Shown here: piece after piece, positions 2,313 to 64,000 of the stretch
Layout: every line of letters starts with the position of its first letter
How positions within the stretch are numbered: the stretch's first letter is position 1
Position numbers and translations under genes: made by a program
The notes under the pieces: model-generated
What the model saw: only the letters and a program-made list of their open reading frames with translations
Told to the model about the DNA's origin: nothing
The model's database searches: none
NCBI RefSeq assembly: GCF_000423465.1
Contig: NZ_KE384022.1
Location: forward strand, 337,176 to 401,175
Reading direction: 5' to 3'
Length of the DNA: 64,000 nt
Source: Propionicicella superfundia DSM 22317
GTDB taxonomy: Bacteria > Actinomycetota > Actinomycetes > Propionibacteriales > Propionibacteriaceae

Positions 2313-2374
2313 CGCCGAACGCTCTGTAACTGCCGGAAAACAGGCCGAATCCGGCAGTTGCAGAGCGTTCGGCG
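2313..2374. repeat. Family A palindromic repeat, copy A1
   Basis: Long hairpin between valS and the next gene. The left arm 2313-2336 (CGCCGAACGCTCTG then t then AACTGCCGG) pairs with 2351-2374 over 24 positions with a single T-G mismatch. The loop is 14 bases. The same arm sequence recurs at 59188, 60411, 61053 and 63010, more than 55 kb away, so this is a dispersed element and not just a local terminator. No T-run follows, although the stem could still stop transcription from valS. Confidence 0.9.
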
Positions 2375-49434: not shown

Positions 49435-49486
49435 GCGCGCGGGCGCGTCGGGGCCGGGCCGGTCCACGGACTCGACACCCGGCGCG

Positions 49487-49657
49487 TGACCGCCAGGTTG
49501 CACGGCATACCGGTCCCTTCGCCTGGCGGTCAGGGCAGTCACCGCCAGGTTGCGAGGCATACGAGCCTCGAATCCGAAGCCGGAACCCGCACAACCTGGC
49601 GGTCAGCGCACGCCGGCCCGGCAACCCGACGTCCTATGCCGCACAACCTGGCGGTCA
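49487..49657. repeat. Family B nested palindrome, left copy
   Basis: 171 bp with four units. Two point right (49487-49508 and about 49540-49560) and two point left (49587-49605 and 49636-49657). The unit reads TGACCGCCAGGTTG..GGCAT. The central loop contains CGAATCCGAAGCCGG. Spacers between the outer and inner units are about 30 bases each side. The left spacer carries a further half unit (CCTGGCGGTCA near 49522). The last unit, read on the minus strand, begins with the stop codon of the gene at 49655-50638. Confidence 0.85.
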
Positions 49658-50638
49658 GCCGGACGCGGACCGGGCCGTACCCGCCAAGGCGCGTTCGACG
49701 CGCTCCACCACGACGCCGGGCCGGGTCATGATCTCCACCGCCAGCCAGCGCACGACGAGGAAACCGGCATCGCGCAGCGCCTGCTCCCGCAGTTTCTCGC
49801 GCACGATGGCGTCGGGGTCGGAGGCGTATTTCACCGCGCCGTCGCACTCGCCGATCACCCCGTGCTCGGGCCACAGGAAGTCCGGGTAGAACCGGCCTTC
49901 CGCCGTCCGGACGGGAGCCTGGCATTCGGGACTCGGGAGACCGGCCAGGTGGAAGTGGCCCGCCGACAGGGACTCTGCCGCCGACTCCCTGCGCGGGTCG
50001 GCCAGCCCGATGCCCGGCAGCAGCCGCGTCACCCGGCGGAACTGCGCCATGTCCGTCAGGAGATCGCGCGCCGCCCCGGCCAGCACAGGCCTCGCGTAGT
50101 CGCTGCGCCGAGGCGTCGTCACGAAGGAGTCGCAGAGCAGGCGAGCGGCCGCATCGAGGATCACGAGCGCCTCCGGAACGGGCAGCCCCGCAGCGAGATC
50201 GACGGCCGTGCGGGCCGGTCCGGTCACCGCGTAGCCGTCCGGATCACGGGAGAGGTGGGACGCGGGAAGCTGCTCGACGTGATGCGTCGTGCCGTTCGAC
50301 CGGGCCCGTCGGCCACCACCAGCGGGTAGCGACACCGATGCGGGGAGGTCGTGCCAGGGGACGTTGCCGGGACACGGCAACCCCCACACGATGGCGGCGC
50401 TCTGGCGGCTGATCACCGCATCCGGGTCCACGGCCAGCTCCGCCCGTGCCCGGATCAGGTGTCGCTCGGCCGGATCGTCCGGCCAGGCCTCGGCGGCGAG
50501 GTACACCCCGCGACGCACCCGCACGAGGCGGCGGCGGCGCAATGCGGTGGTCAGCATCTCGCCGGTCACGCCGATCGCTCTCAGGGTCGACCGGCTCGCG
50601 GGCTGGGTCGGCAACGACCAGGGCTTCGCGGTGCGCAT
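49655..50638 (-). CDS. AbiEi-like plus DUF559 (Vsr-like nuclease) protein, flanked by family B repeats
   Basis: 327-aa protein. The N-terminal part resembles the winged-helix region of AbiEi-type antitoxins (LRAIGVTGEMLTTALRRRRL, then RGVYLAAEAWPDD). The C-terminal part is a PD-(D/E)XK-like DUF559 domain: Asp in FYPDFLWPEHGVIGECDGAV with the E-x-D pair, Lys in the KYASD segment, and ALRDAGFLVVRWLAVEI at the end. It may cut or bind DNA. ATG 50638 begins the conserved part; an ATG at 50656 is possible, and the frame runs upstream through the right-hand repeat without a plausible start. The stop codon is the first three bases of the left repeat. Confidence 0.75.
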   Translation of the reverse strand: MRTAKPWSLPTQPASRSTLRAIGVTGEMLTTALRRRRLVRVRRGVYLAAEAWPDDPAERHLIRARAELAVDPDAVISRQSAAIVWGLPCPGNVPWHDLPASVSLPAGGGRRARSNGTTHHVEQLPASHLSRDPDGYAVTGPARTAVDLAAGLPVPEALVILDAAARLLCDSFVTTPRRSDYARPVLAGAARDLLTDMAQFRRVTRLLPGIGLADPRRESAAESLSAGHFHLAGLPSPECQAPVRTAEGRFYPDFLWPEHGVIGECDGAVKYASDPDAIVREKLREQALRDAGFLVVRWLAVEIMTRPGVVVERVERALAGTARSASG

Positions 50639-50743
50639 GGCACCAACCTGCCGCATCTCCGGTCCGAGAGGAGCGGCACGGAGCCGCACCTGTGGACAAC
50701 TCCGGGCTCGAGGCTCCGTCCCTCGTGCCCACGACGCGGCCCA

Positions 50744-50914
50744 TGACCGCCAGGTTGTGCGGCATACCGGTGCGGTGGCCCGGCCCTCGTCGTTCCGACC
50801 GCCAGGTTGCGAGGCATACGAACCTCGAATCCGAAACCGGAACCCGCACAACCTGGCGGTCACCCCGGACATCGGCGCCACACCCGCGCGCCATGCCGCA
50901 CAACCTGGCGGTCA
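50744..50914. repeat. Family B nested palindrome, right copy
   Basis: 171 bp with the same plan as the left copy. Units sit at 50744-50765, 50797-50817, 50844-50862 and 50893-50914. The core ACCGCCAGGTTGTGCGGCAT is kept in the outer units; inner unit 2 reads GCGAGGCAT at its end. The centre (CGAATCCGAAACCGG) is nearly identical to the left copy, but the two 30-base spacers differ. It lies 106 bases upstream of the gene start. The remaining 50915-51017 shows no gene. Confidence 0.85.
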
Positions 50915-51017
50915 CCCCGCCGCCGGGCGGCGAACACCCCGGCGTGCACTCGACCCGGCCGCGACACGCGACGATCGGGCGGGCGACCGTCCCGGTGCCC
51001 CGGGACGGTCGCGTCGG

Positions 51018-52013
51018 TCAGAAGATCCGGGCGACCACCGAGGCCGGAGCGGCCAGCAAGGTCTCGATCTCGTCGTCCAGCTTGACCAGCGTCAGGGAGG
51101 CGCCGGCCATCTCCAGCGACGTGCAGTACTCGCCGACGTAGCTGCGGGCCACCGTGATCCCCATGTCGGCCAGCTTCTGCGCGGCGATGCCGAACAGCAG
51201 GTACAGCTCGCTGATCGGCGTCCCGCCCAGACCGTTGATCATCAGGGCGACCCGGTCACCCGGCCGGTACGGCAGATCCGGCACGACCGCGCCCAGCAGC
51301 TCGTCGACGATCTCGTCGGCTCCGACCATCTTCGCGCGACGACGTCCGGGCTCGCCGTGGATGCCGACACCGACCTCGATCTCGTCGTCGCCGAGGTCGA
51401 ACAGCGGAGCGCCCTTCGCGGGCGGGGTACACGCCGTGAGCGCGATGCCCATCGTGCGGGTCACCGAGTTGACCAGCTCACCCACACGGACGACCTCCTC
51501 CAGCTCGGCGCCCTCCTCCGCCTTCGCGCCGACCGCCTTCATGACGAAGAAGTTGCCGGCCACTCCCCGGCGGCCCACGGTGTACAGCGAGTCCTGCACG
51601 GCCACGTCGTCGTTGATGAACAAGGTGGCGGCCTTGATGCCGTCGGCCTCGGCGAGCTCCTGCGCCATCTCGAAGGCCATCTTGTCGCCCGTGTAGTTGT
51701 TGACGAGCAGCAGGACGCCCTTGTCGGACGCGAGGAGCTTCGCGGTCTGATACACGTAGTCGCTCGGCGGGGCGGCGAACACGTCACCGGGGCAGGCGGC
51801 GTCCAGCATGCCGGGACCGACCACCATGACGTGCGCCGGCTCATGCCCCGAACCGGATCCCTGGATGATGCTGACCTTGTCGTTGTTCGGGGCATCGGCC
51901 CGCATGATCAGGTTGTACTCGGGGACGTAGGTGATGGTGTCCGGATTGGCGAGCGCGATGCCCTTGAGCATCTCGGGAACGAACTGCTTGGGATCGTTGA
52001 CGAACTTCTTCAC
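51018..52013 (-). CDS. dhaK: Dihydroxyacetone kinase subunit DhaK
   Basis: 331-aa substrate-binding subunit that binds the ketose covalently at a His. The family motifs are IIQGSGSGHEPAHVMVVGPG near residue 50 and VGVGIHGEPGRRRAK near residue 215, where the His forms the covalent adduct. It takes dihydroxyacetone or a related ketose. It is transcribed after dhaL, with 123 bases of palindrome-rich DNA between them. No dhaM phosphotransfer gene is seen, so the phosphate donor (PTS or ATP) is open. Confidence 0.92.
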   Translation of the reverse strand: MKKFVNDPKQFVPEMLKGIALANPDTITYVPEYNLIMRADAPNNDKVSIIQGSGSGHEPAHVMVVGPGMLDAACPGDVFAAPPSDYVYQTAKLLASDKGVLLLVNNYTGDKMAFEMAQELAEADGIKAATLFINDDVAVQDSLYTVGRRGVAGNFFVMKAVGAKAEEGAELEEVVRVGELVNSVTRTMGIALTACTPPAKGAPLFDLGDDEIEVGVGIHGEPGRRRAKMVGADEIVDELLGAVVPDLPYRPGDRVALMINGLGGTPISELYLLFGIAAQKLADMGITVARSYVGEYCTSLEMAGASLTLVKLDDEIETLLAAPASVVARIF

Positions 52014-52136
52014 GGAATACCCCCTGTGAGAGGCCGGGCATGCGCCCGGGATTGGATACTCGGCCCCGGACGGGCACCGGGACCGATTCGGTGACCCGGG
52101 CGATGCCCGGATCCGGGACCGGTGTGCCGCGCCCCG

Positions 52137-52769
52137 TCAGGCGGGCCAGGCGTCGGCGAGGTGCCGCGCGAGGACGGCGATCGCCATCGCGCCGGCGTCC
52201 ACGGAGCCGATGCTGCGCTCACCGGTGTACGCGGCCCGGCCGCGCATGGCCTGCAGCGATGCCGTCGCCTCGGCCGCATCGGCGGCGGTCGTGGCCACGG
52301 CGTTCACGATGGTGCGGGCGTCATGCCCGGCGGCGAGCTCGGCCTCGAGCGTGTCGATCGCCGGGACGAGGGCGTCCAGCAGGGTCTTCTCCCCCAACTC
52401 GGCGCCACCGCGGGTCTTGATACCGTCGACCGACGCGCGCAGCGCACGAACGACGTCCTCACCGGTGAACTCGTCCTTGCCCTTCAACTGGGCACCCGCC
52501 CGCAGGATCGCGGTGCCCCAGATCGGGCCCGAGGTACCTCCGATGCGAGCCGACACGGTCATGGCGATCCGCTGCAGGAACACGCCGGGATCGGTCCGGT
52601 CGAACGTGTCCCAGTCGGCCAGGACGATCTCGAAGCCCCGCGCCAGGGAGAAACCGAAGTCACCGTCGCCGACGACGGCGTCCAGTTCTCCGAAGTACGT
52701 CTCGTTGTCGACGATCGTCTGTGCGATGTCCTTGACGACCCACTCGACGTCGGACAGTTTTCCCGCCAT
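52137..52769 (-). CDS. dhaL: Dihydroxyacetone kinase subunit DhaL
   Basis: 210-aa ADP/ATP-binding subunit of a DhaKL kinase. It has an Asp-rich nucleotide and Mg site (VVGDGDFGFSLARGF near residue 37), where many DhaL proteins read GDGDHG or GDGDTG, and the GTSGPIWGTAILRAGAQ segment. ATG 52769 follows GGAGG by 7 bases; an ATG 21 bases upstream is in frame. It is the first gene of the pair, which is the reverse of the usual dhaK-dhaL order. Confidence 0.88.
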   Translation of the reverse strand: MAGKLSDVEWVVKDIAQTIVDNETYFGELDAVVGDGDFGFSLARGFEIVLADWDTFDRTDPGVFLQRIAMTVSARIGGTSGPIWGTAILRAGAQLKGKDEFTGEDVVRALRASVDGIKTRGGAELGEKTLLDALVPAIDTLEAELAAGHDARTIVNAVATTAADAAEATASLQAMRGRAAYTGERSIGSVDAGAMAIAVLARHLADAWPA

Positions 52770-52829
52770 GACCAAGCCTCCGATCTCCACTGTGAGAAAC
52801 GGTCCGGTGGCGACACCGGCGTGCCATCC

Positions 52830-52835
52830 ACGCTA
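52830..52835 (-). promoter_or_regulatory. Candidate -10 of dhaL-dhaK
   Basis: TAGCGT on the minus strand, about 60 bases before the dhaL ATG. A GGCGGCG/CGCCGCC inverted repeat at 52866-52900 lies upstream. I see nothing else recognisable in the 239-base gap up to 53008. Confidence 0.3.
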
Positions 52836-53008
52836 ACCCGGAATCCGGCCGGACGTCAGCCCACCGGCGGCGGCATTTTTCCGGACACGTGTTCGCCGCC
52901 GCAAGGTGCTACGCTCCGGGCGCGCGACCATCCCCGAGCCGCCGGCCGGGCCGGGGGCGATTTTCCCCCCGTCACCGGAGGACCGCCGTCGAACCGGCCT
53001 CCGCACCG

Positions 53009-53830
53009 TCAGAGCGTGTAGGCACCCAGGTTGGCGACGAGCGCCGCGGGCAACTCGACCGGACGCCCGGCGGTGTCGGCGCACACCAGCACGGTGTGGG
53101 CGCGGGCGCAGACCGCGTCCGCCACCGGGTCGTGGATCTCGGCGACAAGGGTCACCGACGTCCGCCCGATCCGGGCCACCGCCGTCCGCACCTCGTAGGT
53201 CTCCGGCCGATACCGCACCTGTCGCAGGTACTCGACGTCCTGGCGCGCGATCAGCCACAGATGTCCGACCCCGGCCGCGGCACCCATCCGTGCGGCGGAC
53301 GCGTCGGCATCGGTGGTCATGTGGATGCGAGCCTCGGCCACGTAGTCGAAGAAGCGCACGTTGTTGACGTGGCCGTAGACGTCCTGGTCGGTCCACCGCA
53401 CCGACACGGGATGAACGTGATAGCGCCCCGCGATCTCGTGGGCCCCGAGACCCCGCAGCGGAGGCCACCCGGCCGCCACGTCGCGCAGGGCCGATCGCGG
53501 CGCCTCGGGAAGCCTGCGCGGCCTGTTCTCACCGAGGTCGAACGCGCACACCAGGCTCCGGGCGGTCGCGACCGACCGGCCCGCGTGGTACAGGTCGTAG
53601 CCGATCGCGATCTTCGAGCCGCCGACCTCGTCGATCCCGACCTCCACGCGCAACGGCTCCCGGGAGAAGTCCACGGGAGCGTGGTACTCCACCTGATGCG
53701 CGACGACCACCACGCCGTCGGTCGTCAGGGAGCGCGTCGCCGGGGACGACGCGAAATAGCGGACGCGTGCCTCTTGGAGATAGTCGACGATCAGGGTGTT
53801 GTTCACATGCCCCTGGGCGTCGAGATCCAC
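53009..53830 (-). CDS. Double-hotdog acyl-CoA thioesterase
   Basis: Predicted thioesterase with two hotdog domains. The first begins DLDAQGHVNNTLIVDYLQEA and the second (near residue 150) reads RWTDQDVYGHVNNVRFFDYV. Each has the D..GHVNN motif of 4-hydroxybenzoyl-CoA-type thioesterases. It would release fatty acids from acyl-CoA. The GTG at 53830 falls inside the first strand: the preceding in-frame codons encode FELPLRWV, as the family needs. The gene may therefore start at a CTG at 53905, overlapping the stop of the acyl-CoA synthetase as CTGA; no ATG, GTG or TTG lies between. Coupling to that synthetase supports a joint role in lipid turnover. Confidence 0.8.
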   Translation of the reverse strand: MDLDAQGHVNNTLIVDYLQEARVRYFASSPATRSLTTDGVVVVAHQVEYHAPVDFSREPLRVEVGIDEVGGSKIAIGYDLYHAGRSVATARSLVCAFDLGENRPRRLPEAPRSALRDVAAGWPPLRGLGAHEIAGRYHVHPVSVRWTDQDVYGHVNNVRFFDYVAEARIHMTTDADASAARMGAAAGVGHLWLIARQDVEYLRQVRYRPETYEVRTAVARIGRTSVTLVAEIHDPVADAVCARAHTVLVCADTAGRPVELPAALVANLGAYTL

Positions 53831-53901
53831 CCAGCGCAGCGGCAGTTCGAAGGTCGTGCGGGCACCCCGCTGCGGCCGGGTGAGCGGTTCGGCGATCGTG
53901 G

Positions 53902-55722
53902 TCAGTCCTCTTTCTCGTACAACGAGTCGATGACGTCACCGTACTGCTTCACCACGACCGCGCGTCGCACCTTCATGTTCGGCGTCACACCGCCGGAGTC
54001 CACGGTCAGCTCGCCGTCGAGGATCGCAAACCGCTTCACGGTCTCCCAGCGTTCGAGCTTCGCGTTGGCCCGGTCGATATGGCTCTGCACGGAGGCGACG
54101 AACTCGGGGTGGGTGATGAGCTGGGAGTAGCTCAGGTCGCCGAGACGATGCCGCGCCGCCCACTTCTCGGCAAGCCCCTGATCCACCGTCAGGAGGGCGG
54201 CGATGTACTTGCGGCCGTCGCCGACCGCGACCACCTGCGAGATGAACGGGATGGTCGCGGCCACGACGCTCTCGACCTTCTGCGGCGCGACGTACTTGCC
54301 GCCGGACGTCTTCAGCAGGTCCTTCTTCCGGTCGGTGATCCGCACGTATCCGTCGGCGTCGAGCTCGCCGATGTCGCCGGTGTGGAACCAGCCGTCCACC
54401 AGGACCTCCGCCGTGAGCTCGGGATCCTTGTGGTAGCCGCGCATCACCCCGGGCCCTTTGAACAGGATCTCGCCGTCGTCGGCGATGCGCACCTCGGTGC
54501 CGGGGGTGGGCGGTCCGACGGTGCCCAGCCGCGGGATGCGGGGCTCGTTCACGGTCGCGACGGCGCTCGTCTCGGTGAGTCCGTAGCCCTCGACGATGAC
54601 GAGACCGGCGGAGAAGAACCACGACTGCACCTGCGTCGAGAGCTTCGCCGAGCCGGAGATGAAGAACCGGATGTTGCCGCCCATCCGCTCCTTCAGCTTC
54701 GAGTACACGAGGCGGTCGGCGAGCCGGTACTGGGCTGCGAGGCGGCGCGGCAGGGGATCGCCGGACAGACGGTAGGGATGCGTCTTGCGGCCGACCGAGA
54801 AGGCCCAGCGGGCGATCCGGCCCTTGACCCCGGTGCGTCCGGTGGAGCTCAGGACGGTGGCGCGCACCTTCTCGAAGATGCGCGGGGCGCCGCACATGAA
54901 CGTCGGCTTCACCTCGCCCAGGTGGTCGACGATCCTGTCGATCCGGCCGTCGACGGCGGACGCGAAGCCGATGGCCGTCTGGCACGCCAGCAGGCACTTG
55001 CCGAACACGTGCGACAGAGGCAGCCACAGGTACTGCAGCGCGTCGTCGGTGATGATCTGCAGGGTGTCGACGGCGAACCCCTCGTAGGTCCAGTTGCTGT
55101 GGGTGAGTTCGACGCCCTTCGGCAGGCCGGTCGTCCCGGAGGTGTAGATGAGGGTCGCGAGCGTGTCCCCGGAGGTCCGGGCGATCGCGGCGGTCACACA
55201 GCCCGGCTCGGCCTCCAGCCTGGCCCGGCCCCGTGCGCGCAGTTGCTCCCAGCTCAGCACGCGCTCGCCGTCCCCCTCGCCCTCCATGAGGACGATGTGG
55301 CGGACGATGGCCTCGAGCCCGGGCGCCGCGTCGACCTTGGCGAGCTGGTCGGGGTTCTCGGCGATGATGATCTGCGATTCGGAGTGGCTCAGGATGTGCT
55401 CGAAGTCGGGCGACTGCGTGGTGGGGTACACCGTCGTCGTGGCGCCGCCTGCACAGTTGATGGCGTAGTCCGCCAGGATCCACTCGATGCGGGTGTTCGC
55501 CGCGATGGCGACCCGTTGCTCGTAGCCGAGACCGAGCGTGAGCAGTCCCGCGGCGAGTTCGTGCGCCTGCTGCTGCGTCTGCGTCCAGGTGAGGCTCACC
55601 CACCGTTCGGCGGCGTCCTTGTAGCGGAACGCCTCATGGAACGGGGTCTTGCGTACCCGCCATGCCAGAGTCTCACCGACGGTCTGAGGTGCGGCTGCCA
55701 GTACTTCCTGCACCGTTGCCAT
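53902..55722 (-). CDS. Long-chain acyl-CoA synthetase (AMP-forming)
   Basis: 606-aa ANL-superfamily ligase that activates a fatty acid with ATP and CoA. The ATP-binding motif is LIYTSGTTGLPKGVELTHSN near residue 190. The adenylate site is EGYGLTETSAV near residue 390, and GWFHTGDIGELDADGYVRIT plus ITDRKKDLLKTSGGKYV follow near residue 450. ATG 55722 is 114 bases from the divergent marR start, and a shared palindrome between them may couple control. The thioesterase gene follows immediately. Confidence 0.93.
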   Translation of the reverse strand: MATVQEVLAAAPQTVGETLAWRVRKTPFHEAFRYKDAAERWVSLTWTQTQQQAHELAAGLLTLGLGYEQRVAIAANTRIEWILADYAINCAGGATTTVYPTTQSPDFEHILSHSESQIIIAENPDQLAKVDAAPGLEAIVRHIVLMEGEGDGERVLSWEQLRARGRARLEAEPGCVTAAIARTSGDTLATLIYTSGTTGLPKGVELTHSNWTYEGFAVDTLQIITDDALQYLWLPLSHVFGKCLLACQTAIGFASAVDGRIDRIVDHLGEVKPTFMCGAPRIFEKVRATVLSSTGRTGVKGRIARWAFSVGRKTHPYRLSGDPLPRRLAAQYRLADRLVYSKLKERMGGNIRFFISGSAKLSTQVQSWFFSAGLVIVEGYGLTETSAVATVNEPRIPRLGTVGPPTPGTEVRIADDGEILFKGPGVMRGYHKDPELTAEVLVDGWFHTGDIGELDADGYVRITDRKKDLLKTSGGKYVAPQKVESVVAATIPFISQVVAVGDGRKYIAALLTVDQGLAEKWAARHRLGDLSYSQLITHPEFVASVQSHIDRANAKLERWETVKRFAILDGELTVDSGGVTPNMKVRRAVVVKQYGDVIDSLYEKED

Positions 55723-55810
55723 GACGATCCCTTTCCTCGCGGGCCCGGGGTGCTGGTCAGCTTAAGTCACAGCGCACCCTCAGCACATCCCGGCACACGC
55801 CTGCAGAAAG

Positions 55811-55830
55811 TTGAACGGTCAATATATGAT
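55811..55830. promoter_or_regulatory. MarR-type operator and leaderless -10 of marR
   Basis: TTGAACGGTCAA at 55811-55822 is an imperfect palindrome of the type bound by actinobacterial MarR regulators. It directly precedes TATGAT (55825-55830), which ends 6 bases before the marR ATG, so the transcript is probably leaderless and autorepressed. The divergent acyl-CoA synthetase may share the site. Confidence 0.5.
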
Positions 55831-55836
55831 GGCGGC

Positions 55837-56295
55837 ATGACAGCAACACGCGACGTCGTCTGGCTCTCCGCGGAACAGCAGCGGGTGTGGCGCTCCTGGC
55901 TGTCCGCGTCTGCCGCGATCAACGAACACCTGAACGAGGAGCTCCGGCCCTTCGGCCTCGACCTCGGCGAATACGAGATCCTCGTCCGCCTCTCCGAGGC
56001 CCCCGAGCGGCAACTGCGCATGTCCGAGCTGGCGGCGTCGGTGCGTCAGTCCCGGTCACGGCTGACCCATGCGGTGTCGCGGCTGGAGAAGAAGGGGATC
56101 GTCGGCCGGACCAACTGTCCGTTCGACGGCCGCGGGGTCATCGCCCACCTGACCGACCCCGGATTCGAGCTTCTCGCCGAGGCCGCCTTCGCCCACGTGC
56201 GGTCGGTGCGGGACGCCTTCGTCGACGTCGTCGACCCCGCCGACTTCGAGGCGCTGGGCCGGGCTATGAACGCCGTCCTCGCTGCGGAAGACTGA
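55837..56295 (+). CDS. MarR-family transcriptional regulator
   Basis: 152-aa winged-helix regulator. The recognition region is LRMSELAASVRQSRSRLTHA near residue 70, and the wing EKKGIVGRTNCPFDGRGVIA follows. It probably binds the palindrome just upstream. Divergent from an acyl-CoA synthetase and 4 bases before a FAD/Fe-S dehydrogenase, it may regulate both. ATG 55837 follows TATGAT with 6 bases between. Confidence 0.9.
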   Translation: MTATRDVVWLSAEQQRVWRSWLSASAAINEHLNEELRPFGLDLGEYEILVRLSEAPERQLRMSELAASVRQSRSRLTHAVSRLEKKGIVGRTNCPFDGRGVIAHLTDPGFELLAEAAFAHVRSVRDAFVDVVDPADFEALGRAMNAVLAAED

Positions 56296-56299
56296 CCAT

Positions 56300-59131
56300 G
56301 TGGACGTCCTCGGCGCGCTGAACACCCGGCTCGAATCGGCTCTCGGCCGATCGGCCGACTCCTCCCCGCTCGCGCGTGCCCTGTACTCCTCGGACGCCTC
56401 CATCTACCGCGTCCTGCCCACCGCGGTCCTCGCTCCGCGCGACGACACCGAACTCGCCGCGGCCGTCGCCGCCGCGACCGCAGAAGGGCTCCCCGTCACC
56501 GCCCGCGGCGCGGGGACGTCCTGCTGCGGCAACGCGATCGGCCCCGGTCTCGTCCTCGACCTCTCCCGGCATCTCACACGCATCGGCCCCGTCGACCCCG
56601 AGGCGCGGACGGTCACCGTCCAGCCCGGCGCCGTGCAGGCGGCGGTGCAGCGCGCGGCCCTGCCGCACGGGCTGCGGTTCGGGCCCGACCCGTCGACGGC
56701 CGACCGGTGCACGCTCGGCGGCATGATCGGCAACAACGCGTGCGGCCCTCGCGCGCTCGGTTATGGACGGACGTCCGACAACGTCGAATCGGTCACCGTC
56801 GTCCTCGCCACCGGAGACCGGATGACGCTCGGCCCCGGGTCCCCGGCGCCCGCGCCCCTGGCGACGGCCCTGGCGGGGATCGCCCGCGACGGCGCCGACG
56901 TCATTGCCCGCGAGTTCGGGCGATTCAGCCGCCAGATCTCGGGGTACGCGCTCGACCGGCTCGCCGCCGGAGACCTGCCCGGCCTGATCGTCGGCTCGGA
57001 GGGGACGCTCGGGATCGTCACGTCCGCCACGATCCGGCTGGTCCGCGACGCACCGGTGAAGACCACCGTCGTTCTCGGGTATCCGTCGATGGCCGCCGCC
57101 GCCGACGACATCGCGACCGTCCTGCGCATGGAGCCGACTGCCTGCGAGGGGCTGGACGACCGGATCGTCGACGTCGTCCGCCGTCGCGGATTGCCCGTGC
57201 CGGACCTGCCCGCCGGTGCGGGCTGGAACATCGTCGAGCTGACCGGGAACGACGACGCCGAGGTGGCCGACCGCGCCCGGCGCCTGGTCGCCGAGGCGCA
57301 CGCGGACGAGGGCTGGGCGCTGCCCGCCGGGGCCCAGGCCCTTGCCATCTGGCGGATTCGCGCTGATGGCGCCGGGTTGGCCTCGGTCGCGTTCGAACGC
57401 CGCGCGTACGCGGGGTGGGAGGATGCCGCCGTCCCGCCGCACCGCCTCGGGGCGTACCTGCGGGATTTCGACGCCCTGCTCGCCGAGCACGGGCTCCGCG
57501 GCCTGCCGTACGGGCACTTCGGGGACGGCTGCGTCCACTGTCGCATCGACTTCCCGCTCATCCACGCGGACGGGACGGGGCGCTTCGGCCGGTTCCTGGC
57601 CGACGCCGCCGATCTCGTCGCCTCCCACGGCGGGTCGCTGTCGGGCGAGCACGGCGACGGCCGGGCACGGTCGGCGCTGCTGGACCGGATGTACAGCCCG
57701 GCCGCGATGGACCTGATGCGCCGGGTGAAGACCGCCTTCGATCCCGAGAACCTGCTCAACCCGGGCGTCCTCGTGGGCCCCGCCGGTACGACGGGCTCCG
57801 CACCGCCCACGGCCGACGTGCGCGACACCGTCCTGATCGATGCACCCCTGGCAGCCTCGCACCCGCGGTTCGCCGAGGACGTCCATCGCTGCTCCGGTGT
57901 GGGGAGATGCCTGGTGGACGACACGGGCCGCGGCGGGGTGATGTGCCCGTCCTACCAGGCGACGGGCCGCGAGCAGGATTCGACGCGGGGACGCGCACGG
58001 GTGCTGCAGGAGATGATCGCCGGCTCCGTCGTCACGGACGGCTGGGCGGCGCCCGAGGTGCGCGAGGCGCTCGACCTGTGCCTCGCATGCAAGGGCTGCG
58101 CGCGCGAATGCCCCACGGGGACCGACATGGCGGCGTACAAGTCGCAGGTGCTGTACGAGGCGTACCGGGGCCGATTGCGGCCCGTGTCCCACGTGTCCAT
58201 GGGGTGGCTGCCCCTGTGGGGCCGGGTCATCTCCCGCGCCGGGCTCTCCGGGATCGTCAACAGGGTGACCGCCTCGGCCGCCGCTCCCGTCGTGACGCGG
58301 CTGGCCGGCGTCGACCGGCGGCGGTCGCTTCCCCGGTTCGCCGCGGGACGAGCGGCGTCGCGGGCGGCGACGCGTGCGGCGACCGGGCCTCGGGTGGCGA
58401 TGCGTGACGCGACCGGGCCCCGGGTGGCGATCTGGATCGACTCGTGGACCGATTCCTTCGCCGGGTCGCACGCCGAGGATGTCGCGACCGTCCTCGCGGC
58501 GGCGGGGTTCTCCCCCGAGTTCCTGACCGCGACGGCATGCTGCGGGCTGCCGTGGATCACGACCGGGCAACGCCCTCGCGCCGCCCGGGAGCTCCGCCGC
58601 GCCCGAGCGGCGCTGCTGCCGGTGGTGCGCGCGGGCGTCCCCGTCGTGGCGACCGAGCCGTCGTGCCTTGCCGTGTGGCGTTCCGACGCCGCCGACCTGC
58701 TGCCCGGCGACGAGACCGCCGAGGTCGCGGCCGGCGTCCGGTCGCTGGCGGAGTTCCTGGACGACGCGGGGTGGCGGCCGCCCAGCCTGGCCGGACGCAC
58801 CCTGGTCGTGCAGCCGCACTGTCATCAGCGGGCCGTCGTGGGCTGGGAGGCGGACGCCCGGCTGCTGACCGCCACCGGGGCCGAGGTCGTGACGGTCGGA
58901 GGGTGCTGCGGGCTCGCGGGCAACTTCGGGTTCGAGCGAGGGCACTACGACGTGTCGGTGGCCGTCGCCCGGCACGACCTGCTGCCGGCCCTGGAGGCCC
59001 ACCCCGACGCGATCTTCGTCGGGGACGGCTTCTCGTGCCGCACGCAGGTGTCCGATCTGACCGGACGTCCCGTCGCCACGCTCGCGCAGGTTCTTGCCGC
59101 GGAGCTGCGGGGGTCCGAATCCGCCGGCTAA
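56300..59131 (+). CDS. FAD-binding/Fe-S fusion oxidoreductase (D-lactate dehydrogenase-like)
   Basis: 943-aa fusion of a GlcD-type flavoprotein and a GlcF-type iron-sulfur part. The FAD domain has VTARGAGTSCCGNAIGPGLV near residue 68 and GGMIGNNACGPRALGYGRTS near 140. Ferredoxin motifs are CSGVGRCLVD and CLACKGCARECP (about 533-615). Two CCG domains (ATACCGLPW, VGGCCGLAGNFGFE) follow and are usual in lactate or glycolate quinone oxidoreductases. D-lactate or another 2-hydroxy acid is the likely substrate. The start is GTG 56300, four bases after the marR stop. The linker near residue 690 carries a duplicated ATGPRVA unit. Confidence 0.88.
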   Translation: MDVLGALNTRLESALGRSADSSPLARALYSSDASIYRVLPTAVLAPRDDTELAAAVAAATAEGLPVTARGAGTSCCGNAIGPGLVLDLSRHLTRIGPVDPEARTVTVQPGAVQAAVQRAALPHGLRFGPDPSTADRCTLGGMIGNNACGPRALGYGRTSDNVESVTVVLATGDRMTLGPGSPAPAPLATALAGIARDGADVIAREFGRFSRQISGYALDRLAAGDLPGLIVGSEGTLGIVTSATIRLVRDAPVKTTVVLGYPSMAAAADDIATVLRMEPTACEGLDDRIVDVVRRRGLPVPDLPAGAGWNIVELTGNDDAEVADRARRLVAEAHADEGWALPAGAQALAIWRIRADGAGLASVAFERRAYAGWEDAAVPPHRLGAYLRDFDALLAEHGLRGLPYGHFGDGCVHCRIDFPLIHADGTGRFGRFLADAADLVASHGGSLSGEHGDGRARSALLDRMYSPAAMDLMRRVKTAFDPENLLNPGVLVGPAGTTGSAPPTADVRDTVLIDAPLAASHPRFAEDVHRCSGVGRCLVDDTGRGGVMCPSYQATGREQDSTRGRARVLQEMIAGSVVTDGWAAPEVREALDLCLACKGCARECPTGTDMAAYKSQVLYEAYRGRLRPVSHVSMGWLPLWGRVISRAGLSGIVNRVTASAAAPVVTRLAGVDRRRSLPRFAAGRAASRAATRAATGPRVAMRDATGPRVAIWIDSWTDSFAGSHAEDVATVLAAAGFSPEFLTATACCGLPWITTGQRPRAARELRRARAALLPVVRAGVPVVATEPSCLAVWRSDAADLLPGDETAEVAAGVRSLAEFLDDAGWRPPSLAGRTLVVQPHCHQRAVVGWEADARLLTATGAEVVTVGGCCGLAGNFGFERGHYDVSVAVARHDLLPALEAHPDAIFVGDGFSCRTQVSDLTGRPVATLAQVLAAELRGSESAG

Positions 59132-59156
59132 TCCCCCGCCCCCTCCCCGCCCCTCC

Positions 59157-59249
59157 CGCCGAACGCTCCGATCCCCCCGCCCCCTCCCGCCGAACGCTCC
59201 GAAACTGCCGGAATTTCCCCGAATTCCGCCAGTTCCGGAGCGCTCGCCG
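59157..59249. repeat. Family A palindromic repeat, copy A2 with an extra half arm
   Basis: A half arm CGCCGAACGCTCCG at 59157-59170 is followed by the full copy. The full left arm starts at 59188 (CGCCGAACGCTCCG then a then AACTGCCGGAATT) and pairs with 59222-59249 with several mismatches. It is the upstream flank of the DUF559 gene at 59394. The remaining bases to 59393 show no gene. Confidence 0.8.
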
Positions 59250-59393
59250 CGAGAATCGGCAGCGCCAGGCCCACCCTCCGAGCCGGGCTCTCCGGTTGTG
59301 AGCCGGCCGCCCAGATTGTGGACAACGATCTGCGCCGTCCACCGATGGCTCTCGACGGCGTCGCGGCGCGTCCCGGACGTGTTTCCTCGGACC

Positions 59394-60455
59394 ATGCACG
59401 TCCTCGCACAGCCGCACGACCGGCGCCCCGACCCCGTCCTCGACTCGCCGCTCGGGGGTCTTGCCCGTGAGCAGCACGGCCTGCTCACCCGACGGCAGTG
59501 CCTCGCCCACGGGTTGACCGACGGCGTCGTCGCCCGCCGGATCGCCCGTGGCCACTGGGCCCGGCCCGCTCGCGGCCTCGTGGACACCGGGCTCGTCGCA
59601 GACCGCTCTCCCGACGGTGTCGCGCGTCGAGGCGTCGTCCTGTCGCTGCTGTCCCAAGGGCCCGGCGCCGTCGCCGTCGGCCCGTCGGCGCTTCTCCTCC
59701 ATGGCGTCTGGGGAGTCCCCCACCCGCTCACGCCGCAGGCGGCGCAGGTCCGCGCCACGAAGCGGGAGCCGCCCCGCGGTGCGCGGAGTCGCAGGTTCCG
59801 CACAGCGGGACGCGTGGTCGAGGTCGGTGGCCTGCTCGCGGTCGATCCGGTGCTGGCGCTCGCGCAGACGGTGGTCGAGGCGGGACCGACGTCCGCGCTC
59901 GGGCTCCTGGATTCCGCGCTGCACCGCCGTATCCTCCAGCCCGAAGAGCTCGACGACGTCCGGTCTCTGGCCAGGGGCCGACGCGGCGTGCGCTCCATCG
60001 CGCAGGTGTGGCCCCTGATCGACGCACGCCGGGAATCCCCGCTGGAATCGTGGGCGTACTACGACCTCTGGTCTGCGGGACTGTGCCCGACCGATGTCCA
60101 GATCACGATCGGGGACGCTCACGGGCAGGTCCTCGCGCGCTGCGACATGGGCTACCTGCTGGACGACGGGACCTGGCTGATGGTCGAGCTCGACGGGCGC
60201 GACTTCCACACGGGTGCCGTCGCGCTGACGCACGACTATGCCCGCGGCAACGACCTCAGCCTGGCCGGCGGCATGAGGGTGATCCGCTTCGTCGCAGAGC
60301 AGCTCGGCTGGGACGGCCCGATGGTCCGCACGATCCGGCAGCACCTGCGAACGAGAAGCTGGGCTCCGCCGCGTCCCCGAACCCTTGACCTTGCATCCCG
60401 CATCCCACCCAACGCTCCAGAACTGCCGGAATTCGGAGAGAATCCGGCTGTTTGA
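59394..60455 (+). CDS. AbiEi-like plus DUF559-type nuclease protein, flanked by family A repeats
   Basis: 353-aa protein of the same broad type as 49655-50638. The N-terminal part (LAREQHGLLTRRQCLAHGLT, VARRIARGHWARPARGLVDT) resembles the AbiEi-type DNA-binding segment. A central HTH-linked region follows (AVGPSALLLHGVWGVPHP). The C-terminal part is PD-(D/E)XK-like: ESWAYYDLW, Asp in CDMGYLL, the E-x-D pair in MVELDGRDFH, and DYARGNDLSLAGGMRVIRFV. The last 14 codons (PPNAPELPEFGENPAV and stop) are encoded by repeat copy A3. ATG 59394 is the best start; an in-frame GTG is 15 bases upstream. Confidence 0.72.
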   Translation: MHVLAQPHDRRPDPVLDSPLGGLAREQHGLLTRRQCLAHGLTDGVVARRIARGHWARPARGLVDTGLVADRSPDGVARRGVVLSLLSQGPGAVAVGPSALLLHGVWGVPHPLTPQAAQVRATKREPPRGARSRRFRTAGRVVEVGGLLAVDPVLALAQTVVEAGPTSALGLLDSALHRRILQPEELDDVRSLARGRRGVRSIAQVWPLIDARRESPLESWAYYDLWSAGLCPTDVQITIGDAHGQVLARCDMGYLLDDGTWLMVELDGRDFHTGAVALTHDYARGNDLSLAGGMRVIRFVAEQLGWDGPMVRTIRQHLRTRSWAPPRPRTLDLASRIPPNAPELPEFGENPAV

Positions 60456-60485
60456 GAGCACTCGCCGAAAGAGAGCGTTCCGGCG
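60411..60485. repeat. Family A palindromic repeat, copy A3
   Basis: Left arm AACGCTCCAGAACTGCCGG at 60411-60429. The partly degraded right arm starts near 60444 (CCGGCTGTTTGAGAGC), and an extra GAGAGCGTTC lies at 60471-60480. It contains the stop codon (60453-60455) and last codons of the DUF559 gene and ends 23 bases before the DinB-like gene. Confidence 0.7.
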
Positions 60486-60507
60486 ACCGAGGGTGCAGGA
60501 TGGAACC

Positions 60508-61050
60508 ATGCGGACAACCCAACTGGTGCTCGACTCACTGGGCCGGGTACACGAACTGATCCCCGCCGTCCTCGACGGTCTCACCACCGAGGACGTCCTG
60601 TGGCGTCCCGATCCCGGCGCCAACTCCATCGGCTGGCTCATCTGGCATCTCACCCGCGCCGAGGACGCGATCGTGAGCCACATCGCCGGTGCCGAGCAGG
60701 AGTGGGACACGGGCAAGTGGAACGAGACCTTCGGCCTGCCGTATGCGGCACCCGGCGGGGGATTCGGCATGTCCGCCGAGGACGTCGGCCGGTTCACCGT
60801 CCCGGATCCGGACGTCCTGCGACAGTATGCCGAGGCCGTCGGCGCGCTCGCGGGCGAGGTCGTCTCAAAGCTGACCGATGCGGATCTCGACCGGGTCATC
60901 GACACCACCTACACACCGCCGGTCACGCTCGGCGTGCGGCTGGTGTCGGTCATGGTCGAGACCGCCCAGCACATCGGACAGGCGGCGTACCTCAAGGGCA
61001 TGCGCGAGCGGGCCACCGGAACTGCCTCGGCCTGGCACGGATACGTATGA
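60508..61050 (+). CDS. DinB-superfamily (DUF664) protein
   Basis: 180-aa helical-bundle protein with the metal-binding histidines typical of DinB-like enzymes: H48 in LIWHLTRAEDA, H58 in IVSHIAGAEQEW and H158 in ETAQHIGQAAYLKGM. Relatives include mycothiol-dependent transferases and maleylpyruvate isomerases. The exact substrate is unknown. ATG 60508 follows GGTGCAGGATGG. It lies between repeat copies A3 and A4. Confidence 0.82.
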   Translation: MRTTQLVLDSLGRVHELIPAVLDGLTTEDVLWRPDPGANSIGWLIWHLTRAEDAIVSHIAGAEQEWDTGKWNETFGLPYAAPGGGFGMSAEDVGRFTVPDPDVLRQYAEAVGALAGEVVSKLTDADLDRVIDTTYTPPVTLGVRLVSVMVETAQHIGQAAYLKGMRERATGTASAWHGYV

Positions 61051-61052
61051 CC

Positions 61053-61114
61053 CGCCGAACGCTCCGATTCCCGCGAATTCTGGCGAGTTTCCGCAGGAAG
61101 GGGAGCGTTCGGTG
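61053..61114. repeat. Family A palindromic repeat, copy A4 (degenerate)
   Basis: Outer arms CGCCGAACGCTCC at 61053-61065 and GGAGCGTTCGGTG at 61102-61114 pair over 13 positions with one mismatch. The inner part is diverged (GCGAATTCTGGCGAGTTTCC). It starts 2 bases after the DinB stop. Confidence 0.7.
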
Positions 61115-61251
61115 ACGCCTGTGTCCCCTCGACATGGACGAAGCCGAGTTGTTGAACTGCCTTACCACGCTAGGCGCGTTCCGGGATCCCACGACACGAG
61201 CGCTCAGGGACCCGTAGCGCTTCTTGGGCGTTCGCCGCGTCAGGCCGGCGC

Positions 61252-61281
61252 TGGCATAATGGGCGGGCGTACCCGCCCATT
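61252..61281 (+). promoter_or_regulatory. Extended -10 promoter and 5' hairpin of ettA
   Basis: TGGCATAAT at 61252-61260 is an extended -10 element (TGn before CATAAT). Overlapping and just after it is a perfect 10-bp stem: AATGGGCGGG at 61258-61267 with its complement at 61272-61281 around a 4-base loop. The mRNA would begin inside the stem, 25-40 bases before the ettA ATG. It may stabilise the 5' end or act as a control element. Confidence 0.5.
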
Positions 61282-61305
61282 CGCGAAGCAGAGGTCACAC
61301 CACAC

Positions 61306-62988
61306 ATGCCAGAGTTCGTCTTCACCATGCACAACGTCCGCAAGAAGCTGGGCGAGAAGGTGGTCCTGGACAACGTCACCCTGTCGTTCTACGAGGACGC
61401 CAAGATCGGCGTGGTCGGCCCGAACGGCGCCGGCAAGTCGACCCTGCTGAAGATCATGGCCGGGCTGCTCACGCCCGACAACGGCGATGCCGCGCTCGCC
61501 AAGGACAAGACCGTCGGCATCCTGCTCCAGGAGCCCCCGCTGACCGAGGGGAAGACCGTCCTGGAGAACGTCGAGGAGGCCGTCCACGACACACTCGGCA
61601 AGCTGCGGCGGTTCAACGAGGTGTCGGAGGCGTTGGGCGACCCCGACGCCGACTACGACGCGCTCCTGGCCGAGATGGGCGAACTGCAGACCGAGCTCGA
61701 TCATCGCAACGCGTGGGATCTGGACTCCCAGCTCGAACAGGCCATGGACGCGCTGCGCTGCCCGCCCGGCGACGCGATGGTGGACGTGCTGTCGGGCGGT
61801 GAACGGCGACGGGTGGCCCTGTGCAAGCTGCTGTTGCAGCAGCCCGATCTGCTCCTGCTGGACGAGCCCACCAACCACCTGGACGCCGAGTCGGTCGCCT
61901 GGCTCGAGGGACATCTGAAGGCGTACCCCGGAGCCGTCCTCGCGGTCACCCACGATCGGTACTTCCTGGACAACGTGGCCGAGTGGATCTGCGAGGTGGA
62001 CCGCGGCAAGCTCCACCCGTACGAGGGCAACTACTCGACCTACCTCGACACGAAGAAGGCACGTCTCCAGGTCGAGGGCCGCAAGGACGCCAAGCGCGCC
62101 AAGATCCTCGAACGCGAACTCGAATGGGTCCGTTCCAACCCGAAGGCCCGGCAGGCGAAGAACCGCGCCCGGCTCGCCCGCTACGAGGAGCTGGCCGCCG
62201 AGGCCGAGCGCAACCGCAAGCTCGATTTCGAGGAGATCAACATCCCGGCCGGTCCCCGGCTGGGCAGCGTCGTCCTCGAAGCCGACACGCTCACGAAGGG
62301 CTTCGACGACCGCGTCCTGATCGAGAATCTCAGCTTCACTCTCCCGCGCGCGGGGATCGTGGGCGTGATCGGCCCGAACGGCGTCGGCAAGACCACCCTG
62401 TTCAAGATGATCGTCGGCGAGGAGTCGCCCGACTCGGGCACGCTCCGGGTCGGTGACACCGTGACGTTCTCCTATGTCGACCAGAGCCGCGCCGGTATCG
62501 ACCCCGACAAGAACGTCTGGGAAGTCGTGTCGGACGGCCTGGATCACATCAAGGTCGCGAGCTTCGAGATGCCGTCACGTGCGTACGTGGCCTCGTTCGG
62601 GTTCAAGGGCCCCGACCAGCAGAAGCCTGCCGGAGTGCTCTCGGGCGGTGAGCGCAACCGTCTCAACCTGGCGCTCACCCTGAAGATGGGCGGCAACGTC
62701 CTGCTGCTGGACGAGCCCACCAACGACCTGGACGTCGAGACGCTCCAGTCGCTGGAGGACGCCCTCCTCGAGTTTCCCGGGTGCGCGGTCGTGATCTCCC
62801 ACGACCGGTGGTTCCTGGACCGGGTCGCCACCCACATCCTCGCCTGGGAGGGCGATGAGGAGGACGGGGCGAAGTGGTTCTGGTTCGAGGGGAACTTCGC
62901 CGACTACGAAGAGAACAAGGTCGCCCGGCTGGGCGTCGACGCGGCGCGCCCGCACCGCGCCACGCACCGCCGCCTGACCCGGGACTGA
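61306..62988 (+). CDS. ettA: Energy-dependent translational throttle protein EttA (ABC-F)
   Basis: 560-aa cytosolic ABC-F ATPase with two nucleotide-binding domains that gates the first peptide-bond step according to the ATP/ADP ratio. The first Walker A is GPNGAGKST and its signature VLSGGERRRVALCKL; the second Walker A is GPNGVGKTT and its signature VLSGGERNRLNLAL. The charged linker (EGRKDAKRAKILERELEWVR) and the EttA arm region are present. GAGG precedes ATG 61306 by 10 bases. The only difference from standard EttA is a short Arg-rich C-terminal end (RPHRATHRRLTRD). Confidence 0.95.
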   Translation: MPEFVFTMHNVRKKLGEKVVLDNVTLSFYEDAKIGVVGPNGAGKSTLLKIMAGLLTPDNGDAALAKDKTVGILLQEPPLTEGKTVLENVEEAVHDTLGKLRRFNEVSEALGDPDADYDALLAEMGELQTELDHRNAWDLDSQLEQAMDALRCPPGDAMVDVLSGGERRRVALCKLLLQQPDLLLLDEPTNHLDAESVAWLEGHLKAYPGAVLAVTHDRYFLDNVAEWICEVDRGKLHPYEGNYSTYLDTKKARLQVEGRKDAKRAKILERELEWVRSNPKARQAKNRARLARYEELAAEAERNRKLDFEEINIPAGPRLGSVVLEADTLTKGFDDRVLIENLSFTLPRAGIVGVIGPNGVGKTTLFKMIVGEESPDSGTLRVGDTVTFSYVDQSRAGIDPDKNVWEVVSDGLDHIKVASFEMPSRAYVASFGFKGPDQQKPAGVLSGGERNRLNLALTLKMGGNVLLLDEPTNDLDVETLQSLEDALLEFPGCAVVISHDRWFLDRVATHILAWEGDEEDGAKWFWFEGNFADYEENKVARLGVDAARPHRATHRRLTRD

Positions 62989-63009
62989 GCCTCCGCCGGA
63001 CGACTGAGC

Positions 63010-63075
63010 CTCGCCGAGCGCTCCCGAACTGCCGCTTTTCGGGGCTTTTCCGGCAGTTCGGGAGCGTTCGGCGAG
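63010..63075. repeat. Family A palindromic repeat, copy A5; also a likely bidirectional terminator
   Basis: Left arm 63010-63034 (CTCGCCGAGCGCTCCC then GAACTGCCG) and right arm 63051-63075 form a 25-bp stem with one G-T mismatch around a 16-base loop that holds CTTTTC and CTTTTCC. It lies between convergent stops (62988 and 63086). A short GACTGAGCCTC direct repeat precedes it (62983 and 63002). Confidence 0.88.
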
Positions 63076-63085
63076 AGGTATCGGC

Positions 63086-64000
63086 TCAGCGGGCCTTCCG
63101 GATCGCGTCGCGGGCCCGCTGATACCGGTCGAGCTCGGCGGTCACCGGCGCCACGATCTCGGTGGATGCGACCGTCGCGACCGATCGGCGGATCGCCGTC
63201 CGGGCCCGCACCCGCTTGCGGCGGGCACCCAGCTCCACGCCGATCCGGCACACCCCCGCCAGGACGATCCCGGCCAGGGCCCCGCCCACCGCCAGCACCG
63301 TCTGGGCGGGGAAGCCCCACCAGGTCACGCCCGGGAGAGCAGGAAGCTGCAGGTACAGCAGCAGGAAGTCCACGGCCAGCCAGCCCAGACCCGCGACGAC
63401 CGCGACGATGAGCAGCCATTGCAGGACGCGCACGACCGTCCACCAGGACTGTCCGCGTTCGAACTGCAGATCGGTCCCCGCGATCGCGGCGTCCAGCCTG
63501 CCGGGCAGCAACGCCCTGTTGCTGCGGGCGGCCTCCTTGACGGCGTCGGCCCAGCCGCGCGGCAGACCGGTGGCCGCCTGCTCGCCCAGCGCGCGGACGG
63601 CCATGTCCACCTGGGCGGTCTGCACCGGCGCCGCACCCGGCAGGGACGTCCGCGGCGCGGGGTCGAGCTCCGCCCGCTTCTCCCCGAGTCGCAGCCGCCG
63701 CAGCGGATCGGCGCGCAGCTTCGCGATCCACGACAGCATCGGCCAGCCGGTCGCATAGGCTCCGCGGAGCCGCCATGCACGCCCGACGGCGTCCACGACG
63801 ACCTCACCGCCTGCGGCCGCCACAAGGGAGTCGGTGAGCCTCCGGCCGACCTTCCGCTCCAGTTCGGGCACATCGGACGTCCCGAGCTGGGGTTCGAGCT
63901 CTGCCACGGCGCGCGAGATGTCGGCGGCCAGTCGCTTCGCCGCCGTCTGCTTCTCGCGCACGGCGGCGAGGATCCGCCGCCCGAGCTCGGGCACGCCCTG
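63086..64000 (-). CDS. C-terminal part of a membrane-anchored protein, probably GTPase-associated
   Basis: The frame is open to the window edge, so only the last 304 residues are seen and the start is missing. The segment has a helical region (AAKRLAADISRAVAELEPQL), two membrane segments (VLQWLLIVAVVAGLGWLAVD and AGIVLAGVCRIGVELGA) and a basic linker. The arrangement (helical domain, two spans, short C-terminal tail) resembles the C-terminal half of large actinobacterial membrane GTPases of the Era/dynamin-like type, but no GTPase motif lies in view. It is convergent with ettA. Confidence 0.6.
   Translation of the reverse strand, partial: QGVPELGRRILAAVREKQTAAKRLAADISRAVAELEPQLGTSDVPELERKVGRRLTDSLVAAAGGEVVVDAVGRAWRLRGAYATGWPMLSWIAKLRADPLRRLRLGEKRAELDPAPRTSLPGAAPVQTAQVDMAVRALGEQAATGLPRGWADAVKEAARSNRALLPGRLDAAIAGTDLQFERGQSWWTVVRVLQWLLIVAVVAGLGWLAVDFLLLYLQLPALPGVTWWGFPAQTVLAVGGALAGIVLAGVCRIGVELGARRKRVRARTAIRRSVATVASTEIVAPVTAELDRYQRARDAIRKAR

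Follow-up and report, generated by a model that had tools for sequence, protein, structure and literature searches.

The window analysed here, a stretch of 64,000 nucleotides from Propionicicella superfundia DSM 22317, carries two genes that are each framed by short inverted repeats, none of which is assigned a strand. Gene A (59394..60455, + strand) is predicted to encode an AbiEi-type DNA-binding half, a Vsr/homing-type PD-(D/E)XK nuclease half and an unstructured tail, and its neighbours are of the FAD-oxidase/4Fe-4S and DinB types. One family A palindrome is located upstream of the gene (59188..59249) and another, copy A3, downstream (60406..60467), where it overlaps the last codons and the TGA. 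A further copy, with conserved outer and divergent inner arms, lies just past the DinB gene (61053..61114), one (63012..63073) is found between an ABC transporter-type gene (61306-62988) and a convergent ORF ending at 63086, and a distant copy is present at 2313..2374. Each palindrome consists of two half-sites facing each other at a fixed spacing, the half-site being composed of a conserved block on either side of three variable bases (CGAACGCTC-NNN-AACTGCCG); half-sites of ~20 bp with this division occur in families A and B and in the family of genome G535.

A search of the 3.62-Mb genome with the family A half-site CGAACGCTCNNNAACTGCCG returned 154 sites at up to three mismatches and 116 at up to two, against 16 and 2, respectively, for the reversed-pattern control, and family A is therefore not a product of chance. 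If most half-sites pair, an estimated 70-80 elements would be present in the genome. Four copies fall inside 4 kb (59188-63073), against an expectation of 0.08 per 4 kb that assumes 75 genome-wide elements, about half the number of half-sites. Comparison of the variable triplets of the two arms in 24 elements gave 43 matches out of 72 (shuffles, 37.7 ± 3.4, with 802 of 10000 as high), and clear covariation was not seen.

The ORF of gene A and the copy A3 palindrome have 50 nt in common, confirming the initial annotation that the last codons and the stop of this gene lie inside the repeat. The TGA (60453-60455) coincides exactly with the variable triplet in the 3' arm of copy A3, which reads GGCTGTT-TGA-GAGCACTCG (family A consensus, GGCAGTT-NNN-GAGCGTTCG), and residues ~338 to 353 together with the stop are encoded by the repeat. 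The view that the repeat has become coding at the end of the gene is supported by this arrangement, and homologues with other palindromes behave likewise. Alignment of gene A with 44 homologues (45 rows) placed the end of the shared domain near residue 320, and none of the homologues has anything corresponding to the final ~28 residues of gene A. The comparison of C-termini proposed at the outset revealed no homologue with the same tail, NAPELPEFGENPAV being absent from all other 44 rows. A conserved functional role for the repeat-encoded C-terminus was considered and rejected, given that none of the 45 rows except gene A has the tail and that residues 342-353 are modelled with a pLDDT below 50. 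Because the homologues go without this tail, the coding overlap at gene A is, to judge from the sequence, a read-through into the neighbouring repeat.

The further suggestion that the element provides both the stop codon and a terminator held in part: the TGA does lie inside the element, in its variable triplet and not in a conserved portion, and the terminator is unsupported, because the hairpin of copy A3 is the weakest of the five folded family A copies (-24.8 kcal/mol, compared to -33.9 to -50.7 kcal/mol) and has no T-tract. Searches for intrinsic terminators (a GC-rich hairpin followed by a T-run) in 59100-61400 and for Rfam families in 49000-64000 gave no matches. The end of the repeat, previously set at 60485, takes in a second outer-arm-like sequence, GAGCGTTCCGGCG (60468..60485), directly 3' of copy A3 and just past the hairpin.

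Overlap with the stop codon recurs among the homologues, at one extreme of a narrow range of positions around the stop. A clear downstream palindrome was placed at 34 loci, which include orthologous loci and are thus not all independent; of these, 15 have a palindrome starting before the end of the stop codon (at least 20 nt before it in eight of these), 17 have it 0-60 bp past the stop with no overlap and two have it further on; the window locus is left out of this table, as the degenerate copy A3 was mis-measured by the hairpin finder. An arm or the end of the repeat itself holds the stop in L134, L139, L140 and gene B, and tails translated from the gene's own overlapping palindrome occur in L134, L139, L140, L068, L119, L126, L136 and L041. 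The idea of a device by which the element serves its own gene was not borne out, since half of the palindromes (17/34) lie 0-60 bp past the stop without overlap and dispersed copies of family A and of two other families are also found just 3' of unrelated genes.

Gene B (49655..50641, - strand), the second AbiEi/DUF559-type gene of the window, has neighbours of the Dak1 and amidohydrolase types and is framed by two family B blocks, one downstream (49487..49657) with four half-sites starting CCGCCAGGTTG, two per orientation, and one upstream (50744..50914), which is a direct copy at a spacing of 1257 bp. The stop of gene B is the TGA of TGACCGCCAGGTTG, TGACCGCC being the end of a family B half-site, and the initial annotation was right that the family B gene overlaps its repeat at the stop codon only. 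Genome-wide, family B is present at 126 sites (reversed control, 6), with as many as four half-sites per block. With family A at 154 versus 16 and family B at 126 versus 6, the genome contains two dispersed families, each framing one AbiEi/DUF559-type gene. Three other loci of this genome deserve mention. An AbiEi-DUF559 gene on G000:C2 is accompanied on its 3' side by tandem units of 89 nt and on its 5' side by units of 91 nt (L001:935-1211 and 2330-2871), which are possibly a repeat family of its own; a DUF559 gene on G000:C12 has AATGTCAC motifs on both sides (L002:1439-1464, 2482-2497 and 2627-2652); and a DUF559 gene elsewhere on C3 (L003) displays no obvious repeat.

The protein encoded by gene A falls into an AbiEi-type DNA-binding half (~residues 11-210) and a nuclease half (~214-323). 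Structural comparison identified the catalytic domain of the homing endonuclease I-Bth0305I (3r3p) as the best fold for residues 215-323 (Z 10.7, rmsd 2.9, 95 aligned residues), and residues 11-210 matched the AbiEi antitoxin 6y8q (Z 8.2, rmsd 5.8, 180 aligned residues), folds absent from the comparison rows not being excluded thereby. AbiEi was also recovered by Foldseek (E 2.3e-4), with Rv2827c (1zel) among the matches of the N-terminal half, and by the PADLOC AbiEi profile (E 1.2e-6). AbiEi_4 was the sole Pfam match up to E 1, and no DUF559 match was obtained for gene A in six-frame and Pfam searches. Related proteins match DUF559/MTES_1575 in Pfam: DUF559 is above the cut-off for gene B in the six-frame search (21.4 bits) and just below it in hmmscan (19.8 against 20.6), and PF18741, the MTES_1575-type Vsr restriction-endonuclease domain, gave weak sub-threshold matches with gene B (E 2.3e-4) and L037 (E 2.6e-5). 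No matches were returned by NCBIfam for four proteins, nor when solved structures were searched by sequence with profile A3. Eleven residues of the nuclease half (S215, E218, D251, E265, D267, G268, H272, D281, R284, N286 and R298) are invariant in 45/45 rows and, as read from this alignment, are of the catalytic, PD-(D/E)XK type. The I-Bth0305I-type nuclease we take to belong to the EDxHD family, kin to Vsr. The models thus predict a protein whose AbiEi-like DNA-binding half is fused to a nuclease half of the Vsr/homing type.

A class-wide search found a match at E 1e-15 in 41 of 394 genomes, and the flanks of these homologues were scanned for repeats shared between the upstream and downstream sides. 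The first set comprised 44 distinct loci with enough flank (duplicates L070, L072, L073 and L085 left out), and a shared repeat above the 99th percentile of controls was found in 22 of them, that of gene A included, with 19 exceeding the control maximum; the controls were 288 mismatched pairs drawn from 48 loci, the four duplicates among them. These repeats are mostly palindromes of 55-90 bp, each locus with a sequence of its own, and a few exceptions, such as L082, L083 and in part L041, are low-complexity or longer matches. The second scan covered 55 named loci from Isoptericola, Krasilnikoviella, Puerhibacterium, Oerskovia, Propionicimonas, Pseudonocardiales and others, of which L157 and L161 were left out and 52 of the 53 given were scored; L036/L123, L037/L111, L067/L127 and L068/L124 are common to both sets. 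At a score of at least 25, 40 of the 52 loci carried a shared repeat on both sides, compared to 7 of the 413 other genes that these loci contain, and at a score of at least 32 the figures were 31/52 and 1/413. Random windows of the same loci reached 7/416 and mismatched pairs 10/312 above 25, some of the latter perhaps due to related GCGAGTC units across Pseudonocardiales loci. No shared repeat above threshold was observed in 22/44 loci of the first set and 12/52 of the second, including L115 and L118, whose syntenic orthologues are flanked by repeats. Paralogues of one genome have different palindromes, and many Pseudonocardiales loci are flanked by arrays of ~20-22-bp units whose orientation is reversed from one side to the other.

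All loci that scored as flanked have a repeat copy upstream of the gene. The promoters of AbiEi antitoxin genes contain inverted repeats to which the antitoxin binds, and an autoregulatory or type IV toxin-antitoxin system, in which an AbiEi-type repressor fused to a nuclease binds the inverted repeats of its own promoter while other copies are decoys or remnants, would account for this upstream copy and for the AbiEi-type DNA-binding half. Such a system offers, however, no place for the downstream copy or for the dispersed copies, which in three families are mostly located 3' of unrelated genes, and searches of neighbouring domains revealed no AbiEii-type toxin directly adjoining gene A or gene B. 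The ABC transporter-type protein two genes from gene A does match AAA_21, a Pfam model described as putative AbiEii toxin, at a level far below its ABC_tran match. We regard autoregulation as quite improbable, the most so of the alternatives weighed here.

The dispersed copies were also placed relative to genes, using GC3-based ORF calls and not annotation. Of 25 best-matching family A elements, 23 could be classified, 14 in convergent, eight in tandem and one in divergent spacers; 17/20 elements were classified for the G535 family and 10/11 for that of G101, a Propionicimonas MAG, and 14 of 16 and 8 of 9 measured elements, respectively, lie within -20..60 bp of the 3' end of a gene. Three families therefore sit mostly just 3' of genes. 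Family B has no such tight placement (five of six elements classified, three convergent and two divergent; one of three measured within 60 bp of a 3' end). The bias of three families to convergent spacers and to positions just behind stop codons, and the strong hairpins of four of the five folded copies are what would be expected of bidirectional terminators or mRNA-stabilising hairpins, serving as 3'-end signals of many genes, with one on each side of gene A. The lack of a terminator-like site in 59100-61400 speaks against this explanation. It also leaves the two-sided repeats of these genes unexplained and gives no account of genome-private families or of a repeat sequence that tracks the protein, so that we consider it rather improbable.

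Dispersal in the own genome was found for eight of the nine repeat families followed, and, of those searched for in further genomes, three are private or nearly so and a fourth is shared by two other genomes. Searches for family A in 146 other genomes of the family gave 0-4 matches each, the same range as controls. The G101 palindrome has 25 sites against none for the reversed control and was found in one of the nine genomes searched and none of the eight others. The G535 palindrome reaches 70 sites in its own genome (reversed control, 0), and in its genus 70, 29, 13, 8, 2 and 2 sites were counted in six genomes and none in 34 of 40. The four genomes of the genus with at least eight sites all belong to a group of seven whose homologue is at least 72% identical (Fisher p 0.0004, with cut-offs set after the data were seen), and G558 has two sites and no homologue at E 1e-40. 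The unit of Actinophytocola gossypii (259 sites versus 0 in the control) is not private, being found at 183 and 19 sites in two Prauserella genomes and at none in a third. Isoptericola halotolerans (G393) encodes five homologues, and three of its four palindrome families are dispersed, at 12, 9 and 13 places at E < 0.01 (counted with no shuffled control), the fourth occurring only at its gene.

Protein similarity and repeat similarity are correlated across 41 loci (Mantel rho 0.22, 0/2000 permutations as high), the effect being carried largely by closely related proteins, and at 11 of the 41 loci the most similar protein also has the most similar repeat. Of the second locus set, only L112-L141, minus the shared loci, were used for this test and for the table of palindrome positions. 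Orthologues of I. halotolerans, Isoptericola sp. AK164 and I. chiayiensis retain the outer GCGTCTCTG and have changed the inner arm on both sides. Similarly, six of ten homologous loci in the genus of G535 keep the outer GTGATCTTG with an inner arm that differs and is still largely self-complementary; of the remaining loci, G554 has a shorter shared stretch and three show none. On these sequence comparisons, repeat and protein diverge together. Flanking copies that are alike within a genome and different between species, and a nuclease half closest to the I-Bth0305I catalytic domain, are also consistent with homing or site-marking, in which the nuclease would cut chromosomes lacking, or carrying, the site and the repeats would spread through repair by gene conversion and not by transposition. 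Yet the gene is syntenic in several Isoptericola and Krasilnikoviella species, its orthologues occupying the same place without the patchy sweep that homing predicts, and the dispersed copies examined are too short for a gene. Homing appears unlikely, if less so than the two alternatives above.

Comparison of orthologous spacers revealed differences in element presence in a few of the 45 comparisons listed (85 versus 8, 110 versus 15 and 120 versus 6 bp, measured between aligned flanks that are too diverged for exact junctions) and no such difference in the others listed. Base-exact empty sites were not obtained among these comparisons, those with closer genomes included, as the spacers differ too much, and mobilisation of the repeats by the protein is accordingly inferred from the layout. 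In the L208/L257 and L207/L254 pairs, a copy is recognisable in both genomes and altered in one, and altered copies also occur in relatives with few or no matching ones. Copies of the GAGCGTCTCTG family of Isoptericola sp. AK164 are found away from the gene (L112:4489-4549, L130:18037-18095 and 20435-20499), with shorter spacers in some relatives among the spacers listed, and Isoptericola sp. BMS4 has a 94-bp double palindrome (L129:18283-18376) whose spacer is shorter in a relative, again among those listed. Intergenic palindromes with TTTCGACAGGCTC in Krasilnikoviella flava (L114:15962-16008 and 17766-17823) represent another family, for which no partner gene was seen.

Taken together, we lean towards gene A being the protein partner of a REP-like family, one that recognises the half-site, cuts, and helps the copies to spread or persist. 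The protein would recognise its ~20-bp half-site and nick or cut at or near it, and cutting would help the short, non-autonomous copies to spread or be maintained. By analogy with RAYT genes and their REPINs, the gene itself would stay in place under largely vertical inheritance. A repeat copy would have come to lie against the 3' end of gene A and the native stop would have been lost, the frame running on to the TGA in the variable triplet, so that the coding overlap would be a by-product. The repeats could also be kept for another reason, such as termination or mRNA stability, and be merely bound by the protein. If the protein is indeed the partner of these repeats, a stationary gene with a cloud of tiny dependent repeats has evolved more than once, a candidate cause is at hand for many actinobacterial intergenic hairpins, and related proteins with diverged ~20-bp targets provide pairs for studying change of DNA specificity.

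In its setting, gene A makes a strong candidate for a new form of the partnership between repeats and nuclease. Chances seem evenly balanced that it represents a second, independently evolved repeat-propagating system, widespread in actinobacteria, in which a Vsr-fold nuclease of the homing type, equipped with an AbiEi DNA reader, generates and maintains REP-like palindromes or half-site arrays of its own along the chromosome, specificity and repeat co-evolving. No literature tying DUF559 or AbiEi-nuclease fusions to dispersed repeats was found among the matches listed, in a search whose coverage mostly excludes subscription journals. I-Bth0305I (3r3p) shares the fold of gene A residues 215-323, with E265-x-D267, H272 and D281 conserved, whereas the DNA-binding half of gene A is AbiEi-like and tied to dispersed repeats. 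AbiEi (6y8q) and Rv2827c (1zel) share the fold of its N-terminal half and differ in the fused nuclease of gene A and the lack of an adjoining AbiEii partner. The likeness to MTES_1575 (PF18741) consists of the weak sub-threshold matches; the founding protein is described as a large fusion with HEPN, transglutaminase and helicase in PMC3710099, whose passages on that protein are silent on repeats.

The closest parallel is the REPIN-RAYT system (REPtron). The relevant passages of PMC3116915 and PMC3733652 describe a gene flanked by its own repeat, with several families per genome, each near its gene; according to those of PMC3733652, the substrates of a recombinant E. coli RAYT are GTAG-tagged REPs in single-stranded form, and REPs tied to RAYT transposases exist beside another large REP group with no known dedicated transposase. 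Both systems feature short, extragenic, dispersed palindromes in inverted pairs, several families per genome and a flanked gene, and the repeat sequence here co-varies with its own protein. Unlike in REPIN-RAYT, the hosts found here are actinobacteria, families A and B have no terminal GTAG (GTAG does occur inside some other palindromes, such as that of G101), and some families are four-half-site blocks, as in family B, or inverted ~20-22-bp arrays, as in Pseudonocardiales. RAYTs belong to the HUH tyrosine transposases (IS200/IS605 group). The protein here does not: it consists of AbiEi and PD-(D/E)XK halves, and its nuclease half is positively assigned to another fold.
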